This document shows positions 1,409 to 7,845 of a stretch of DNA of 35,307 bases, piece after piece (position 1 is the stretch's first letter; every line of letters begins with the position of its first letter). This stretch comes from Candidatus Kapaibacterium sp. (GTDB lineage: Bacteria; Bacteroidota; Ignavibacteria; Kapaibacteriales; UBA4661), in assembly GCA_004292595.1 (NCBI GenBank), contig RDXM01000113.1, forward strand, positions 1 through 35,307. The letters are read 5' to 3'. The notes under the pieces were generated by a model. That model searched no databases. It was not told the DNA's origin and saw nothing but the letters and a program-made list of their open reading frames with translations. The position numbers and the translations under genes were made by a program.

Positions 1409-2104
1409 TCAAAGTGCTTTTCCATATTGTTCAAGCCATTGTTGAGCTTTTTTATACTGCGGACAAGCGACAGATACAGCAAACCAAAAATGTTGTTTAT
1501 GGTGCATAAACTTTGTGTGAATAAGTTCGTGGAGCAAAACATAGTGCAAGACATACTCTGGTGCCTTGATAATACGCCAATTCACCGAAATATTGCCCTT
1601 GGGCGAACAGTTCCCCCATTTTGTTTGCTGACTGCGAATAAACAGTTTGTTATAAGAATAACCGTGTAAAGCCGATAAACACTCTGCTTCTTGAGCAATG
1701 TATGCCCGTGCAAAACGCTTATACCAACATTCTTGCACATTCGCATCCAATAAATCTTTACCAGATTGTACCGTGCAATGCCGATGATTGACCACAACAC
1801 GGTTCTGCAACCGCTCCGAATACACATACTGATACCTCTTGCCCAAAAGCATGATTTGATGCGGGTGTAGCGTCAAGTACGGCTTGTTTGCCTGCTGCGC
1901 CCGGAATCGCTCTTGTTGGCGGCGAATCCATTCGCCTTTTTGCTCCAAAAGCGCAATCGCTTCCACATCGCTCCAATGCTGTGGCACAACGATACGCACC
2001 GCCAAATCATCACTCACGCGAATCCGCACGTGCTTGACGCTGCGCCGCTCAATCGAATAGGGCAGCGAAACGTTAGCTGTATGTGTCACATGAGGTTTTA
2101 TCAT
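1409..2104 (-). CDS. YgjP/DUF45-family metallopeptidase in the hsd operon
   Basis: A 231-residue protein of the YgjP (DUF45, WLM-like) zincin family. The zinc motif HELIH is at residues 192-196, with a probable third ligand H202 just before FW at 206-207. The family block TKWGNCSPKGNISVNW is at 161-176. The family is predicted to be cytoplasmic zinc peptidases; substrates are unknown. The ATG at 2104 overlaps the hsdR stop as ATGA, indicating translational coupling, so this start is preferred to the in-frame GTG-like start at 2134. YgjP-like genes are often found beside type I restriction genes. A role in turning over or processing the restriction complex is a guess. Confidence 0.85.
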   Translation of the reverse strand: MIKPHVTHTANVSLPYSIERRSVKHVRIRVSDDLAVRIVVPQHWSDVEAIALLEQKGEWIRRQQERFRAQQANKPYLTLHPHQIMLLGKRYQYVYSERLQNRVVVNHRHCTVQSGKDLLDANVQECWYKRFARAYIAQEAECLSALHGYSYNKLFIRSQQTKWGNCSPKGNISVNWRIIKAPEYVLHYVLLHELIHTKFMHHKQHFWFAVSVACPQYKKAQQWLEQYGKAL

Positions 2105-5100
2105 CGCTCTAGCCGATAATGTTCCACAACCCACTTGAGTATTTCGTTCAATGCTTCGCTGTTCGTGCTTATGCCCAACGCAAAAAACGCATCGTCTTGT
2201 GCCAGCAGTTCCACGTCCAAAAGGAAATCACGTTGCATTTTGTCGCTCAGATGCCATTTCACGTAGCGACGGTCTTTGATCATCGTCGCAATCCGCTCGG
2301 CAAATGCTCGTGCCAACGGTTCATCAAACACCGCTTCGGCGGCGGATGCACGCTTGACAACGTGAAAAATATCAAACGTTCCTCGGTCGGCAAATCCCAT
2401 ACGCTGCGGCAGTGTGGCGGCGTTCACCAGTTCTTCGTAGAGCGTGTGAAGGTGCGCAAGCACGTCTTCGACCGAACTGTCTGCCTCGCGCTTTTTTTTC
2501 ACCAGTTCATCTAAACGTTCCTGAAACTCCGCATAAACAGGGCTTTGCGATTCATTTTGCCGAATGATAATCTCCACGTCGCGGATGATTTTTTCTGCCT
2601 TGTCGCTTGGACTCAGGTTTGTTTGTTGCAAATTGTTGATATACCGCTCGTCAATGATAATTTCCGGCAAATGCCCCTTGAAATTGAGCAACCGTGCGCT
2701 TTCCTGAATCAATCGGCGCGTTTTGGCGGCATAGACTTCGGCATCAAATTCAATACGCTTAAATTCATTCAAATACAATTCATAAATTTCGTTCAGCCAC
2801 TGATACTGCGTTCTGTACTCGCGGAGCGACGGATGCGGCGACAGTGCTTCATAGAGGCGCACGGCAGCATAATAACTCGCTTCAAATTCCGCTTGGTCGA
2901 GCCGCGCCAGTGCTTGCACCAGTTCAACGCTGCACTCGTAGCTATCGTTCAGCACCACGCCCGCAAACGGCTTCATTGCTTCTTCCATCACACCCGGAAA
3001 TGTTTCGGCAAGCGCCGCCACATCCTCAAATTCCGTTAGGTCTTCGGGGTTGTAGTCCAGTGCTGCCATGTAGTCCCGGAACACCCCGACGTAGTCCACC
3101 ACGCGCCCAAATTCCTTTGTTACCCGCGTCGAAGGCTCTTCGTAGGGGCGATTGGTGCGGGCAATGGCTTGCAGCAAGTTGTGGTCGCGTAAGGGACTGT
3201 CCAAATACATCGTTTGCTCAATCGGCGCATCAAATCCCGTGAGCAGCATATTGCAGACAATCAAAATTTTGACGTTGTTGCCGATTGCCCGCTCTTCGTC
3301 GGTCAGCCGCCGCTTGAAGTGTTTGATAACGGCTTTTTGTTCTGTTTCGCTCATGGTGTGGTCGCGGAAGAGTGCCGACCGCGCATCATCGTCATAGCTG
3401 CCTTCCGAAAAAATGATGCACAGTTCCGAGCGGTCAAAATGTGCCAAAAGTGCGTTGAAATACAGCACACACGCTTCTTTGTCGCACGCCACAATCTGCG
3501 CCTTGAATCCAAGCGGCTCGACGACGGCGCGAAAATCCTCCGCGATGTCGTTTGCCAAAACCGCCATACGCTCAGGATGCTTCAAAAACTGCTTCCATGC
3601 TTGCGTGCGCTGCCAGACGGTGTTGCGCTGTTCGTCCGTGAGGTCGGCGGTGATTTCGCGCCAGCCTTCGCGCAGTTTTTCTTTGTCCAAATGCCACTCT
3701 TGCGGTCCGAAGGTGTAGCGAATCGGCAGCGTTGCGCCGTCCTCGATAGCGTCTTGAATGCTGTATCGGTCTAAATATTTTTCGACAACCGCCGTGCCTT
3801 CCCGAAGACCAAACTCGCGGTGCGTCTTGCGAATAGGCGTACCCGTGAACGCAAAACGCCGTGCGTTCGGCAGTACGCCTTGCAGTTCGCTTTGATAATC
3901 GCCGTATTGGGTGCGGTGCGCTTCGTCTATCAGCACAATGACGTTTGTGCGGTCGTCCTTCAGTGCGCCCAATTCCCGGAATTTCTGAATCGTTGTGATA
4001 AACACGCCCGCCGGACGTTTGGCAATCGTGCTTTTGAGGTCGCCGATGTTCAGCAGCGTTGCCACATTGGGAAATTCACAATCGGCAAACGTATCGCCGA
4101 TTTGTGTTTTGAGGTTGCGCCTGTCCACGACGATATAGACTGTCGGGTTTTCCAAACGCACGTCTTCGCGGAGTTTGGTGGCGGTGTAGAGCATGGTCAG
4201 GCTTTTGCCGGAGCCTTGCGTGTGCCAAATAACGCCTTGCTTCAGGTCGCTTGCCGCGACGCGCTCCACGATTTTGTTGGCAGCGCGAACTTGCTGATAC
4301 CGCGCCACTTTTTTCACCGTGCCATGCTCCCGGCTGCGCTCAAAGACGAGAAAATGTTTCAGAATATCCAGCACCCGTGCGGGTTGCAGCAATCCCGCAA
4401 CGCCCCATTTCATCTGCTCCAAGGGGGCGCGTTTGCCGTCGGCGGTCTCATAATAGCCTATCTGAAATCGCGCCTCGCCGTCCTCTTCCACCCAAGGGCA
4501 GAAGGTGTTTTTCGCGCTCAAAAGCGGGTTGCCCGTGCGACTCCGGTCTATGGTCATATCGCGCCATTCGGCAAAATACGTTTTGGCTGCGCCCGGAATG
4601 CCGTATTTCGTGATTCTACCGTTGCAGGTTACGCCGAAAGCGTGTGCTGCCCAGAGCTGCGGGACTTTGCGGGGGTAATGCGAAAATTGCTTCACGCCCT
4701 CTTCCCACGTGGCTTTGCGCCGAGCGCGTTGTTTTGCCTCAATCGGCACAAGCGGAATCCCGTTCACCAGCAGCACGATGTCCGGCTTCACCACCTGCGC
4801 CCCCTGCACCCAATACTGCTGCGTTACAATGAGGCTGTTTGCAAAGGGCGCGTCGAAATCAATCACGCGGCAGGTGCGCGGCTTCCCGGCTATCATCACG
4901 CTTACGCCCTCGCGCAAGAGCCGCAGAAATGCTTCGTTGCCGATAACGGGGTCGGGGTGCCGGATATGCTGCAACAGCGTTTCTGCCGCATCGCTGGCTT
5001 GTGCGGCGGTGATGCCGTTGAACGCCGCAATGCGCTCCCGCAGAATCTCCTCAAGGACGGGATTCCCCAACGGACGCTTGTAGCGGGCGTTCAGTTCCTC

Positions 5101-5184
5101 GCGGGGAATCCAGTCCCAGCCCATTTGTTGCAGCCAGCCGCATATCGGCTCTTCGACGCTGTGCTGTTCGCTCAGGTGGGGCAT
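2101..5184 (-). CDS. hsdR: Type I restriction enzyme R subunit (HsdR)
   Basis: The 1027-residue motor and nuclease subunit of a type I restriction complex; it cleaves DNA after ATP-driven translocation. The N-terminal PD-(D/E)xK nuclease shows D135 and E149-x-K151 (EAK). Superfamily 2 helicase motifs follow: TQGSGKS at 322-328 (Walker A), DEAH at 420-423, TGTP at 447-450, with helicase domain 2 and a helical C-terminus after that. Length is normal. It starts three bases after the hsdS stop, with AGGAG inside the end of hsdS as ribosome site, and its stop overlaps the start of the YgjP-type peptidase. It appears intact. Confidence 0.96.
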   Translation of the reverse strand: MPHLSEQHSVEEPICGWLQQMGWDWIPREELNARYKRPLGNPVLEEILRERIAAFNGITAAQASDAAETLLQHIRHPDPVIGNEAFLRLLREGVSVMIAGKPRTCRVIDFDAPFANSLIVTQQYWVQGAQVVKPDIVLLVNGIPLVPIEAKQRARRKATWEEGVKQFSHYPRKVPQLWAAHAFGVTCNGRITKYGIPGAAKTYFAEWRDMTIDRSRTGNPLLSAKNTFCPWVEEDGEARFQIGYYETADGKRAPLEQMKWGVAGLLQPARVLDILKHFLVFERSREHGTVKKVARYQQVRAANKIVERVAASDLKQGVIWHTQGSGKSLTMLYTATKLREDVRLENPTVYIVVDRRNLKTQIGDTFADCEFPNVATLLNIGDLKSTIAKRPAGVFITTIQKFRELGALKDDRTNVIVLIDEAHRTQYGDYQSELQGVLPNARRFAFTGTPIRKTHREFGLREGTAVVEKYLDRYSIQDAIEDGATLPIRYTFGPQEWHLDKEKLREGWREITADLTDEQRNTVWQRTQAWKQFLKHPERMAVLANDIAEDFRAVVEPLGFKAQIVACDKEACVLYFNALLAHFDRSELCIIFSEGSYDDDARSALFRDHTMSETEQKAVIKHFKRRLTDEERAIGNNVKILIVCNMLLTGFDAPIEQTMYLDSPLRDHNLLQAIARTNRPYEEPSTRVTKEFGRVVDYVGVFRDYMAALDYNPEDLTEFEDVAALAETFPGVMEEAMKPFAGVVLNDSYECSVELVQALARLDQAEFEASYYAAVRLYEALSPHPSLREYRTQYQWLNEIYELYLNEFKRIEFDAEVYAAKTRRLIQESARLLNFKGHLPEIIIDERYINNLQQTNLSPSDKAEKIIRDVEIIIRQNESQSPVYAEFQERLDELVKKKREADSSVEDVLAHLHTLYEELVNAATLPQRMGFADRGTFDIFHVVKRASAAEAVFDEPLARAFAERIATMIKDRRYVKWHLSDKMQRDFLLDVELLAQDDAFFALGISTNSEALNEILKWVVEHYRLER

Positions 5185-5187
5185 TGC

Positions 5188-5802
5188 TTACGCTCCTTCG
5201 GTGTGGGGTGGTGGGGAAAAACTGCCGCCAAGCGCCGACACGGGTAGCTTGCCCGTCAAAAGCTGTTGCATCAGCCCTTGTTTGGTGCGGTGGAGTGCGG
5301 CGATTTTAGTGTGTGCTGCTTCAATAGTATCATCCACGCTGCTGAGTAGGTGCGCTATGGCGCGTTGTTCGGGGAGCGGGGGAAGTGGGATAATGAGCGA
5401 ATACGCATCATTCCGACTTAATCCCGGAACACCTGTTGCGCCTGAGAATTTTTCAAAACCACACGTCGATAGGGTATAATAAAGCCATTTCAAATCAACC
5501 TTCTTTACGAAAGCGGGTTTAATGGCTACATAAAATGCCGTATCTATCGGATAGAAGCTGACATCTGACCACGACACGCTCCCCGCCGTTCCTTTTCGGC
5601 CGATAATGATTCCGGGTCCTTTCACGATGTACGAATCGTGATAGCCCACAATACCATTAGAGCCATAAACCGGATGGCTTCCGTGCTTCCGCTCATCTTC
5701 GGGAAGCGGTTCACCATAGCGCAAATCAATGAGTGATTTGAGGCGAATAGGCGACCAATATTCAGGAATACCATGATTGATAAATTTTTGTAAAGCTCGC
5801 AT
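5188..5802 (-). CDS. hsdS: Half-size type I specificity subunit (HsdS), single TRD
   Basis: A 204-residue specificity subunit that recognises DNA for the HsdM2S methylase and the HsdR-bearing nuclease. Typical HsdS proteins are about 400 residues with two target-recognition domains. This one has a single TRD (roughly residues 14-150, including IIIGRKGTAG) and one conserved spacer (PLPPLPEQRAIAHLL into a long helix, about 150-195, ending LLTGKLP). Since hsdM ends six bases upstream and hsdR begins three bases downstream, no second half was lost locally. The simplest reading is a natural half subunit that dimerises, which would predict a bipartite palindromic target. The alternative is an old deletion. 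Confidence 0.9.
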   Translation of the reverse strand: MRALQKFINHGIPEYWSPIRLKSLIDLRYGEPLPEDERKHGSHPVYGSNGIVGYHDSYIVKGPGIIIGRKGTAGSVSWSDVSFYPIDTAFYVAIKPAFVKKVDLKWLYYTLSTCGFEKFSGATGVPGLSRNDAYSLIIPLPPLPEQRAIAHLLSSVDDTIEAAHTKIAALHRTKQGLMQQLLTGKLPVSALGGSFSPPPHTEGA

Positions 5803-5808
5803 TCGGAT

Positions 5809-7845
5809 TTATTGTATTACGGATGAAAGAAGATGCGTCAATTCGTTAGTTCTGCTCAACTCCAGATGTAATGCGGCTTCTACGTTTTTAATTGCCTCCT
5901 GCAAATCAATCGTTTCCTCCGGCTCGAAGGTATCGACATAGCGCGGGATATTGAGGTTGTAGTCGTTATCGGCAAGTTCGTTGTTGTCCACGATAGCGAA
6001 GTAGCGTTTGCGCTCTTGGGGAGAGCGCAGCACACGGCGGAGTTCTTCGGCGACGGACGCAATAGCGTTGCGCTCGCCTTGCGCCTGCTGCTCTGCGTTT
6101 GCGAGTTCGGCATCTTTTTTTGCCAGAAGGTCGGTGCGTTGTTGTTCGCGTTTGGCGAGTTCTGCGGCTTTTTTTGTGGGTTTGGCGTTTTTGCTGGTCT
6201 TCGCGGCTTCGTCCATTTCCTCGCGGAGTGCGTGAATCTGCGTTTGCAACTTGCTCAGGCGGTCGGCGTAGTCTTGTTCGATTTCGCTGCGGCGAAAGGC
6301 GAGGTCGTCGGCAATATCGGCGCGGAGGCGTTCGATTTCGGGCGGCAAAAACTGCTCCAAGACGGCGGGGTCGCCCCACGACTCCAGCAGCGCGGCAATG
6401 CGCATCACGTCGTGCGGGAGCAGGCGGTTCATGGCGGAATCTTCTTTGCACCAGCCGTCGCGGGCGGCATAGACCATCAAGATTTTATCGGCGCGTTCGG
6501 GGCGTTTGTTGTTGTTGAGAAATAAAATCGCGCCCGGAATACCCGTACCGTAAAAAAGTTTTGCGGGCAGCACGACGATAGCTTCCATCAGCATTTTGGG
6601 CGTTTTTACGTTGCCAATGGCGTTTTCCAGTCCCGTGATAAACTGCTTGCGGATGTGCCACTCGTCATCGGCCTTGCGATTTTGCCCGTCTTCTTCTTCG
6701 GTTTTGGCGGGCTGCCCGCGAAAAAGAACCCCTTGCGGACAGACCACGCCGGCGCGTCCCTGCTCGTTCATGGAGGTAACGATATGCTGCAAAAAGGCAA
6801 AATCGCCGTTGGAAAAGGGCGGAATACCGTAGAGAAAGCGGTTAAAGGGGTCGGCAAACGAGGTTTTATCGGGGTAGTGGAGCTGCGCCGAGCCGTCATT
6901 TTTGGCGGTGGATTTGCCTTGTTTATCTTTTTTGGGTTTGCCGTTGCTCCACCAATTATCGAGCGAAAAGGGGAAGTTTGCCATGACGACATCAAAGGTT
7001 TTGAGGTCTTTGCCGTCGAGGAATTTGGGGCTTTTGAGCGTATCGCCCTGTTCGATGGTTGCCTCGAGGTTGTGCAGAATCATATTGATATTGCAAATAG
7101 CCCAGGTGTTCCAGACGGTTTCTTGTCCGTGCAGTTGGAGCCGTCTCGCCTCACCGCCGCGCTCTTTGACGAACTTCGCGGCATGAATCAGAAAGCTGCC
7201 GGAGCCGCAGGTGGGGTCATACACATCGTCGCCTTCGGCGGGCTTGAGGTAGCGCGTGATAAGGCGCACGACTTCTTGCGGCGTGTAGAATTGTCCGGCA
7301 GTGGCACCGCCCTTGTTTTCATCGGCAAATTTGCCGATAAGGTATTCGTAGGCATCGCCCAGCACATCCGGCGAAGCGTTGTCATCGCTGAGATTGACGG
7401 CATCGAGATAGCTGACGAGAGTAATGAGCGTGTCCGAGGCAAGTTTTTTGTTGCCGGAGCCGTCGGGCGCAGGCTCGTTCCAACGCACGGTGTTGATAAT
7501 GCCTTTCAAGCGGGGATTTTTTTCGGCAATAGTTTCAACGGCTTTGGCAAGCGCGTCGTTCATTGTTGTTGGCACGGCAGAGCGAACATCGTTCCAGAAG
7601 CACCCGTCGGGGATCGTGTAATCATGCGCTTTGTCGAGAATAGTTTGATATTGTTGGGCATTTGGTTTTTTGCCATAGTCTTGGCGAAATTTCTCCAGCA
7701 CCCGTGCGGTTTCGACGGTGTAGTTATCGGAAAGGCGTTTGAAAAAGAGCAGGGTGAGGATATAGGATTTGTAATCTTCGACTTTGTCGCGGAGAATGTC
7801 CGCCATTCCCCAAAGGGTGCTGCCGAGTGCTTGTTTTGAGAGCAT
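5809..7845 (-). CDS. hsdM: Type I DNA methyltransferase M subunit (HsdM)
   Basis: A 678-residue adenine-N6 methyltransferase subunit. The N-terminal HsdM helical domain (about 1-150) is followed by the N6_Mtase domain. The SAM-binding motif DPTCGSGSF is at 210-218, with GQFYTPQEV just before it. The catalytic tetrad reads NFPF at 290-293, a variant of the usual NPPF/Y. The protein is about 150 residues longer than Escherichia coli HsdM, and the extra length is a charged alanine/lysine/glutamate-rich coiled coil at about 510-630. First gene of hsdM-hsdS-hsdR-ygjP. A 56-bp gap separates it from the ABC exporter upstream on the same strand, so read-through or a promoter in that gap are both possible. 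Confidence 0.95.
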   Translation of the reverse strand: MLSKQALGSTLWGMADILRDKVEDYKSYILTLLFFKRLSDNYTVETARVLEKFRQDYGKKPNAQQYQTILDKAHDYTIPDGCFWNDVRSAVPTTMNDALAKAVETIAEKNPRLKGIINTVRWNEPAPDGSGNKKLASDTLITLVSYLDAVNLSDDNASPDVLGDAYEYLIGKFADENKGGATAGQFYTPQEVVRLITRYLKPAEGDDVYDPTCGSGSFLIHAAKFVKERGGEARRLQLHGQETVWNTWAICNINMILHNLEATIEQGDTLKSPKFLDGKDLKTFDVVMANFPFSLDNWWSNGKPKKDKQGKSTAKNDGSAQLHYPDKTSFADPFNRFLYGIPPFSNGDFAFLQHIVTSMNEQGRAGVVCPQGVLFRGQPAKTEEEDGQNRKADDEWHIRKQFITGLENAIGNVKTPKMLMEAIVVLPAKLFYGTGIPGAILFLNNNKRPERADKILMVYAARDGWCKEDSAMNRLLPHDVMRIAALLESWGDPAVLEQFLPPEIERLRADIADDLAFRRSEIEQDYADRLSKLQTQIHALREEMDEAAKTSKNAKPTKKAAELAKREQQRTDLLAKKDAELANAEQQAQGERNAIASVAEELRRVLRSPQERKRYFAIVDNNELADNDYNLNIPRYVDTFEPEETIDLQEAIKNVEAALHLELSRTNELTHLLSSVIQ

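Follow-up and report, generated by a model that had tools for sequence, protein, structure and literature searches.

The hsdMSR-ygjP operon and its peptidase

The window, that is the whole stretch of 35,307 bases analysed here, is one complete contig (C83) of a 4.6-Mb genome and carries on its minus strand a tightly packed operon in the order hsdM-hsdS-hsdR-ygjP. The domains by which a type I restriction system is recognized are present in both large subunits: HsdM (678 aa, 5809-7845) contains HsdM_N and N6_Mtase, and HsdR (1027 aa, 2101-5184) contains HSDR_N, SWI2/SNF2 and T1R_D3 and scores 516 bits with TIGR00348, being the single HsdR of this genome above the cut-off of the model. The hsdS gene (5188-5802) is of half size, encoding one Methylase_S specificity domain in 204 aa where two target recognition domains are normal, and the hsdS frames of three orthologous operons are 403-420 aa long; the short form could be either a natural self-pairing half-subunit or a decayed gene. 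The last gene, ygjP-like (1409-2104, ATG start, 231 aa), encodes a predicted zinc metallopeptidase of the minigluzincin type that matches PF01863, and its other neighbour is a NAD-dependent epimerase gene (Pfam).

The first-pass annotation had reported that the ATG of ygjP overlaps the stop codon of hsdR, which is exact: the ATGA lies at 2104-2101 of the minus strand, with the ATG at 2104-2102 and the TGA at 2103-2101. Its further statement that the peptidase is made in step with the nuclease carries little weight as evidence, since the hsdM/hsdS and hsdS/hsdR junctions of the window are tight as well (6 nt and 3 nt). Across 52 distinct hsdR-ygjP junctions (L067, whose hsdR has an internal stop, being excluded), the nearest possible start of ygjP was found at -4 in 18 and at -1 in 9, and all lay within -23 to +11 nt, under a nearest-start rule that is biased toward overlap. 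Given an operon that is tight at every junction, and the many types of junction encountered, the ATGA overlap was rejected as a signal in itself.

The identification of the product as a YgjP-type peptidase with a HELIH motif was borne out. The protein scored 156.2 bits with PF01863 (YgjP-like, cut-off 26), and the HELIH, the zinc-binding and catalytic motif at residues 192-196, is encoded at 1531-1517 (minus strand). H192, E193, H196 and H202 are invariant in 94 of 94 aligned YgjP; H202 (1499-1501, minus strand), which stands six residues past the last histidine of the motif, is the presumed third zinc ligand, and the complete HExxH-x5-H pattern was present in all 47 hsdR-linked rows and in all 77 unlinked ones. 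The same spacing is found in Wss1. The window peptidase is basic (net charge +16), as are linked and unlinked YgjP, with means of +12 and +15.7, respectively. No family for it or for five other hsdR-linked YgjP was found in PADLOC-DB 2.0.0, no NCBIfam model matched the window peptidase, and an AAA+ unfoldase domain was absent, by Pfam, from the window protein and from the products of its two neighbours, hsdR and the NAD-dependent epimerase gene.

In the AlphaFold model of the window peptidase (pLDDT 91.9, pTM 0.78), the catalytic domain occupies approximately residues 130-230. Its best fold neighbours were the minigluzincins abylysin (Z 13.9), jannalysin and selecase, all at Z 12-14 except for one selecase form at 7.2, followed by SPRTN at Z 9.6-9.8 (6mdw, Z 9.8, 2.4 Å over 93 residues). 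Wss1 scores of Z 8.0-8.5 are level with those of BlaR1 (8.5) and of the M48 relatives ZMPSTE24 and BepA (7.7-8.2), so that only the minigluzincins and SPRTN stand out in this comparison. Foldseek also ranked the minigluzincins first, with Wss1 entries, IrrE, one BlaR1 chain and SPRTN at ranks 8-17, and no M48-named entry appeared among the first 50 matches listed. Regarding the Pfam profiles, at E ≤ 1 WLM (Wss1) matched 83 of the 94 YgjP, SprT-like 76 and M48 2; the window protein itself stays under the gathering cut-offs of WLM (14.8 versus 26 bits) and SprT-like (15.6 versus 25.6 bits). An M48 identity, the label carried by E. coli relatives, was rejected, as the window protein had no match to PF01435 at E ≤ 1 and its best folds are those of the minigluzincins and then SPRTN. 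Motif and predicted fold together place the protein among the metalloproteases of the minigluzincin class, and we infer its activity from them.

The N-terminal part of the peptidase (residues 1-124, 1733-2104, minus strand) is predicted to be beta-rich. Modelled alone it reached a pLDDT of 77.9, and its matches to PDB entries were all weak and none convincing (best Z 3.9), which leaves room for a known fold. It should also be noted that C166, within a WGxC motif (1607-1609, minus strand), is near-invariant in the family and is found in 39 of the 47 linked rows; most of the core-only forms described below have WASC. Wss1 is described as being under cysteine-switch control (PMC4559962), and a comparable cysteine latch may exist at C166, an analogy worth checking.

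Occurrence of YgjP behind hsdR

PF01863 was detected in 183 of the 296 genomes of the phylum to which the window belongs, and HSDR_N in 230. The survey of adjacency and overlap proposed in the first-pass annotation was run on these genomes and revealed a pairing far above chance: among the 150 best-scoring rows of each family, a sample that favours typical members, at least 29 YgjP/HSDR_N pairs were no more than 10 kb apart, all on the same strand with YgjP 2.5-3.0 kb after HSDR_N, compared to approximately 0.2 expected with uniform placement and an assumed mean genome of 3.3 Mb. When 100 YgjP were drawn at random from the 150 best-scoring phylum rows and up to 9 kb upstream was inspected, 41 were located directly behind hsdR and 2 more had hsdR nearby. 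HsdR-YgjP fusions were not seen, the longest open frame among the 150 PF01863 matches listed being 405 aa.

The pairing also occurs outside this phylum. In a cross-phylum GTDB set made of the 80 best loci in a tblastn search with the window protein, 5 were linked and one more had an intervening gene. Among 518 matching plasmid records, six neighbourhoods were opened; three of them were linked, on plasmids of Runella (L064), Halorientalis (archaeal, L065) and Acetobacter (L071) with hsdR to ygjP offsets of -1, +1 and +2 nt, respectively, and the gene tables of the other three (Klebsiella, Rhizobium and Picosynechococcus) listed no hsdR. The Klebsiella copy (L063, plasmid NZ_CP092275.1, 11625-12717) is 99.9% identical to an hsdR-linked copy on an E. 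coli record and lies about 340 nt from IS26, no hsdR being listed before it. The window protein matches 355 Klebsiella plasmid records.

YgjP without hsdR directly in front accounted for 59 of the 100 in the phylum sample and for 75 of the 80 in the GTDB set. Out of 45 such loci with a close upstream gene, 10 upstream genes were scanned and none was a restriction gene; they encoded transporters, a tRNA synthetase and other enzymes, two having no match. Since unlinked YgjP are common and those checked are preceded by miscellaneous genes, the basic job of the family is not restriction. The pairing is thus strong, yet confined to part of the YgjP family. At the margin of these counts, L136 was scored as unlinked although its hsdR seems to be interrupted and a second frame stops 23 nt short of ygjP, and at L138 YgjP lies about 450 nt behind hsdR and groups with unlinked YgjP on the tree.

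In E. coli, 548 of 5426 genomes (about 10%) carry an hsdR of this kind, and in 536 the match covers 80% or more of the gene. The linked ygjP was found in 515 (504 at that coverage) of the 5426 by megablast with an E. coli copy, and in 562 (546) by a more sensitive search with a near-identical Klebsiella plasmid copy as query. When the rows of the hsdR search were sampled at even steps, an M48 or YgjP-like annotation was present under the match in 40 of 40. Among five E. coli alleles, the dN/dS of ygjP was 0.025-0.087 in nine of ten pairs, the tenth giving 0.26 at low dS, and that of hsdR was 0.024-0.062. In E. coli LR-33 (L067, 5720-9004), the annotation places an internal stop in hsdR, and hsdM and hsdS are separated by an IS3 element; ygjP is intact. 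Intact operons with all four genes are carried, for example, by Runella plasmid pRUNSL02 and by environmental E. coli such as P50; in the laboratory strain ATCC 8739 the annotation gives hsdS as frameshifted.

HsdR clades, co-inheritance and the hsdR-ygjP junction

When 60 HSDR_N rows were drawn from the best 150 regardless of YgjP, 10 had YgjP directly behind. On a tree of 90 HsdR (47 linked and 43 not), the linked label changed 5 times, compared to a mean of 30.4 after shuffling (0 of 500 as low). Restricting this tree to the 49 rows sampled by HsdR alone (10 linked, 39 not) left 3 changes, with 10 rows carrying the partner and 1 lacking it inside the YgjP clades, and 0 and 38, respectively, outside. 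Nine rows at contig ends, 13 of less than 800 aa (7 of them linked and 6 not) and 6 duplicates had been excluded. A larger tree was built from 118 HsdR, of which 65 have the partner and 53 lack it; L346 in it duplicates L085, and L343 and L344 are almost copies. This tree gave 6 changes compared to 39.0 after shuffling (0 of 500 as low), and 4 changes among its HsdR-sampled rows (28 with, 49 without). All trees were built with FastTree, and their long branches (the window in the 90-row tree, Halorientalis, EcoKI) are placed less surely.

These results narrow the statement that YgjP proteins are frequent neighbours of type I systems: the association is recurrent, and within the same operon, in specific HsdR clades, whereas no YgjP neighbour was found for EcoKI hsdR, in a 7-row HsdR clade that includes L253 or in a 32-row clade of the 90-row tree. 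A close relation of the linked HsdR to EcoR124I, the type IC enzyme, was considered and rejected: the EcoR124I structure 2w00 scored 608 bits with the unlinked L253 and only 119-130 bits with the linked HsdR tested (window, E. coli, L162), two HsdR of the other unlinked clade giving 108 and 122. EcoKI branches on the tree as a remote outgroup.

With the window HsdR as query, 147 of 395 genomes matched at E ≤ 1e-30, at most two HsdR candidates being scored per genome. Full-length orthologues with 55-58% identity were found in three genomes of two other families (G396, G363 and G148), and YgjP follows hsdR in all three, at offsets of -1, -1 and 0. Among the 30 loci nearest to the window HsdR, which is counted with them, hsdR is immediately followed by a gene of the YgjP family in 19 and by none in 10, and one was not judged. 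The partner-less ten (L330-L336 and L338-L340) form a single clade with HsdR of similar length, and L285, a related HsdR, also lacks a partner.

In 14 of the 19, all in one HsdR clade, the partner is reduced to a catalytic core of around 110 aa, the frame or its matched part measuring about 90-130 aa. HExxH is present in all 14 core-only forms and the exact HExxH-x5-H in 11; the six that were scanned all scored above the PF01863 cut-off while matching just the second half of the model. They are found directly behind hsdR at L341-L345 and L347-L355 and share the pattern KWASxSxxG...HExxH.

The two proteins have diverged together. Over 47 pairs, HsdR and YgjP distances correlated with r = 0.979, and after thinning to 21 pairs with HsdR below 60% identity with r = 0.885; in both cases 0 of 2000 permutations were as high. 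On a YgjP tree of 130 rows the linked label changed 14 times compared to 41 when shuffled. The window YgjP groups there with two unlinked proteins, and four YgjP without hsdR in front (L076, L096, L121 and L137) lie among the linked ones. These label changes and mixed groupings indicate that the pairing was gained or lost more than once. Regarding the window itself, its YgjP was matched in 6 of 7 congeners at only 27-32% identity, so that the gene presumably arrived with the operon. The genome also contains a second, unlinked YgjP (L002, contig C174), which belongs to another clade and is 22-23% identical to that of the window; judged by eye it sits after an IS30-type transposase-like gene, and its relatives on the tree come from six other genomes of the family.

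The position of ygjP is constant where the rest of the operon is not. In three operons orthologous to that of the window, the interval between hsdS and hsdR holds 1.8-3.2 kb of extra genes (L356, 2983-6043; L357, 5709-7499; L358, 5624-7831) and hsdR-ygjP is contiguous; the cargo consists of an AAA/McrBC pair, a RhuM-family gene between two 23S_rRNA_IVP genes, and a GmrSD gene. Similarly, the E. coli interval is empty (L323, L324), contains YecA (L066, L067, L325) or contains YecA and a cold-shock-domain protein (L322), and in these loci too ygjP overlaps the hsdR stop. DarTG is reported at this same position in the RRDM island of EPEC (PMC12255303). The sole insertion seen between hsdR and ygjP, at L242 (8431-9963), is a frame of 511 aa with a weak PD-(D/E)XK match. 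A junction that is fixed while the neighbouring slot varies is the strongest reason we have to regard ygjP as a working component of the operon and not as a passenger.

A candidate protease for DNA-engaged HsdR

Taken together, these results make a partnership between hsdR and ygjP nearly certain; that HsdR is the substrate is what we infer from it. As a tentative reading, which we hold to be somewhat short of evenly balanced, YgjP would join M, S and R as a fourth, near-obligate component in particular families of type I systems, a minigluzincin protease that acts on DNA-engaged HsdR for alleviation, for clearance or for both. Its targets would be HsdR molecules in translocation, stalled ones or those remaining on DNA, and cutting them would limit the harm done to unmodified host DNA (restriction alleviation), remove spent motor subunits, or do both. 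The proposal starts from a shared operon with tight coupling, a pairing that is specific to HsdR clades and deeply co-inherited, and an intact catalytic core under purifying selection (computed in E. coli). From there it passes to a metalloprotease of the minigluzincin class, as predicted from fold and motif, whose substrate would be HsdR or the HsdR-DNA complex and whose outcome would be either alleviation or post-cleavage clearance. It is the descent with HsdR, the retained core, a protease class that includes enzymes acting on DNA-bound proteins and the precedent of ClpXP that lead us to propose a dedicated protease.

In that precedent, ClpXP is reported to degrade the HsdR of EcoKI during long-lived translocation and not in the post-cleavage state (PMC4231737), so that the clearance variant gains no support from it. 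The first-pass annotation had suggested a part analogous to that of ClpXP in preventing self-restriction, and a proteolytic role comparable to restriction alleviation by ClpXP is the most economical reading: removal of DNA-engaged HsdR by proteolysis, as described for EcoKI, is what we propose for the window peptidase. ClpXP, however, is a host-wide, ATP-driven unfoldase-protease encoded elsewhere, whereas the small metallopeptidase is encoded inside the operon and by its predicted fold resembles more the single-chain DNA-directed proteases such as SPRTN. Restriction alleviation is attributed to ClpXP for types IA and IB and described for type IC as ClpXP-independent, non-proteolytic control of assembly (PMC4231737, PMC12707154). 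EcoR124I would thus share with the proposed system an independence from ClpXP, but its control is described as working without proteolysis, and its nearest HsdR among those tested (L253) lies in a partner-less clade.

According to PMC4559962, SPRTN and Wss1 count among the minigluzincins, and DNA binding activates Wss1. The window protein would have in common with them a minigluzincin-like catalytic domain; unlike them, it has its own N-terminal part and belongs to one operon instead of serving many clients. A broader version of the proposal, possible though doubtful, is that a sizeable fraction of the type I systems that are neither classical IA nor classical IC are M, S, R and P machines, in which P would be an SPRTN/Wss1-type protease with DNA-engaged HsdR as its single client, providing a built-in, ClpXP-independent alleviation, and would be core-only in some clades. 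Several observations count against a dedicated protease. Unlinked YgjP are common, partner-less relatives of the linked HsdR exist, and the pairing was repeatedly gained or lost; ygjP is intact beside an internally stopped hsdR in one E. coli strain; and, by analogy, ArdC, a SprT-like antirestriction protein, is reported to affect type I restriction with its protease activity dispensable (PMC7213743). The SprT-like domain is the point of likeness, ArdC being plasmid-borne and opposed to the host system, unlike the operon-encoded YgjP.

Other roles can be weighed on the same evidence. The peptidase could be delivered with HsdR as an effector of counter-counter-defence that cuts phage or plasmid proteins, such as DNA-mimic inhibitors, injected protective proteins or replication proteins, and so strengthens restriction. 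Its place in a restriction operon within the linked HsdR clades and its basic charge agree with such a role, as does the protection against 5 of the 27 phages tested that is reported for the whole EPEC island (PMC12255303); by contrast, a partner that follows the HsdR clade, with distances that track those of HsdR, points to an interaction facing HsdR, and a fast-changing phage target would predict more variable and exchangeable partners. We consider this role unlikely. Tight coupling, co-inheritance and retention of the catalytic core alone are also what a maturation or assembly factor would display, one that trims or chaperones HsdR, or frees R from M2S, to make the active enzyme. Such a factor is quite unlikely given the related HsdR of similar length without partner (L330-L336, L338-L340 and L285), which presumably fold and work unaided.

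Defence genes tend to cluster and unlinked YgjP are common, so ygjP might encode a general protease for DNA-protein crosslink repair that hitchhikes in defence operons; with the variable genes lying between hsdS and hsdR, and ygjP fixed behind hsdR and following its phylogeny, we find this very unlikely. A non-proteolytic nucleotide hydrolase is suggested by the name of a UTP pyrophosphatase family that COG1451 carries in the database, and nucleotide depletion is an established defence strategy. The predicted catalytic fold and the HExxH-x5-H are peptidase-like, and a hydrolase of this kind appears highly improbable.

Returning to the dedicated protease, the gene arrangement itself is already in print: an "M48" gene behind hsdR, conserved near RptR homologues according to a figure legend, is described in PMC12255303 (2025), where the EPEC RRDM island is given as RptR-hsdM-hsdS-DarTG-hsdR-M48. 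This island resembles the window in that its type I system, too, has hsdR followed by a metallopeptidase gene. The protein is named M48 there, whereas a different E. coli hsdR-linked "M48" protein (L066) matches PF01863; and that survey, as described, starts from RptR, whereas here the pairing was followed by HsdR clade in the phylum of the window, in E. coli and on plasmids (one archaeal). The same report states that hsdMSR alone behind its own promoter could not be cloned without inactivating mutations, from which its authors infer a need for regulation and turn to RptR; this failure fits the toxicity of an uncontrolled enzyme, though they read it toward RptR. What the present analysis adds is that the pairing is specific to certain HsdR clades, that its junction is constant, that one form is core-only and that the protein falls with minigluzincins and SPRTN. 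No paper on the function of YgjP beside type I restriction was found in the open-licence literature, the RptR and ArdC papers alone being relevant among those listed. COG1451 may already figure among the defence genes of earlier defence-island surveys.

Type I enzymes are among the oldest known restriction systems. In the accounts cited above, the way in which they avoid self-restriction is worked out only for some families, through ClpXP for IA and IB and through assembly control for IC. The presence of the hsdR-ygjP unit in about one tenth of E. coli genomes makes the proposal amenable to testing in that species. If true, an operon-borne protease would answer the question of self-cutting for whole families of type I systems, HsdR would be the first physiological client of the YgjP family, and the pair would give a simple model, in prokaryotes, of how SPRTN/Wss1-class proteases carry out DNA-directed proteolysis.
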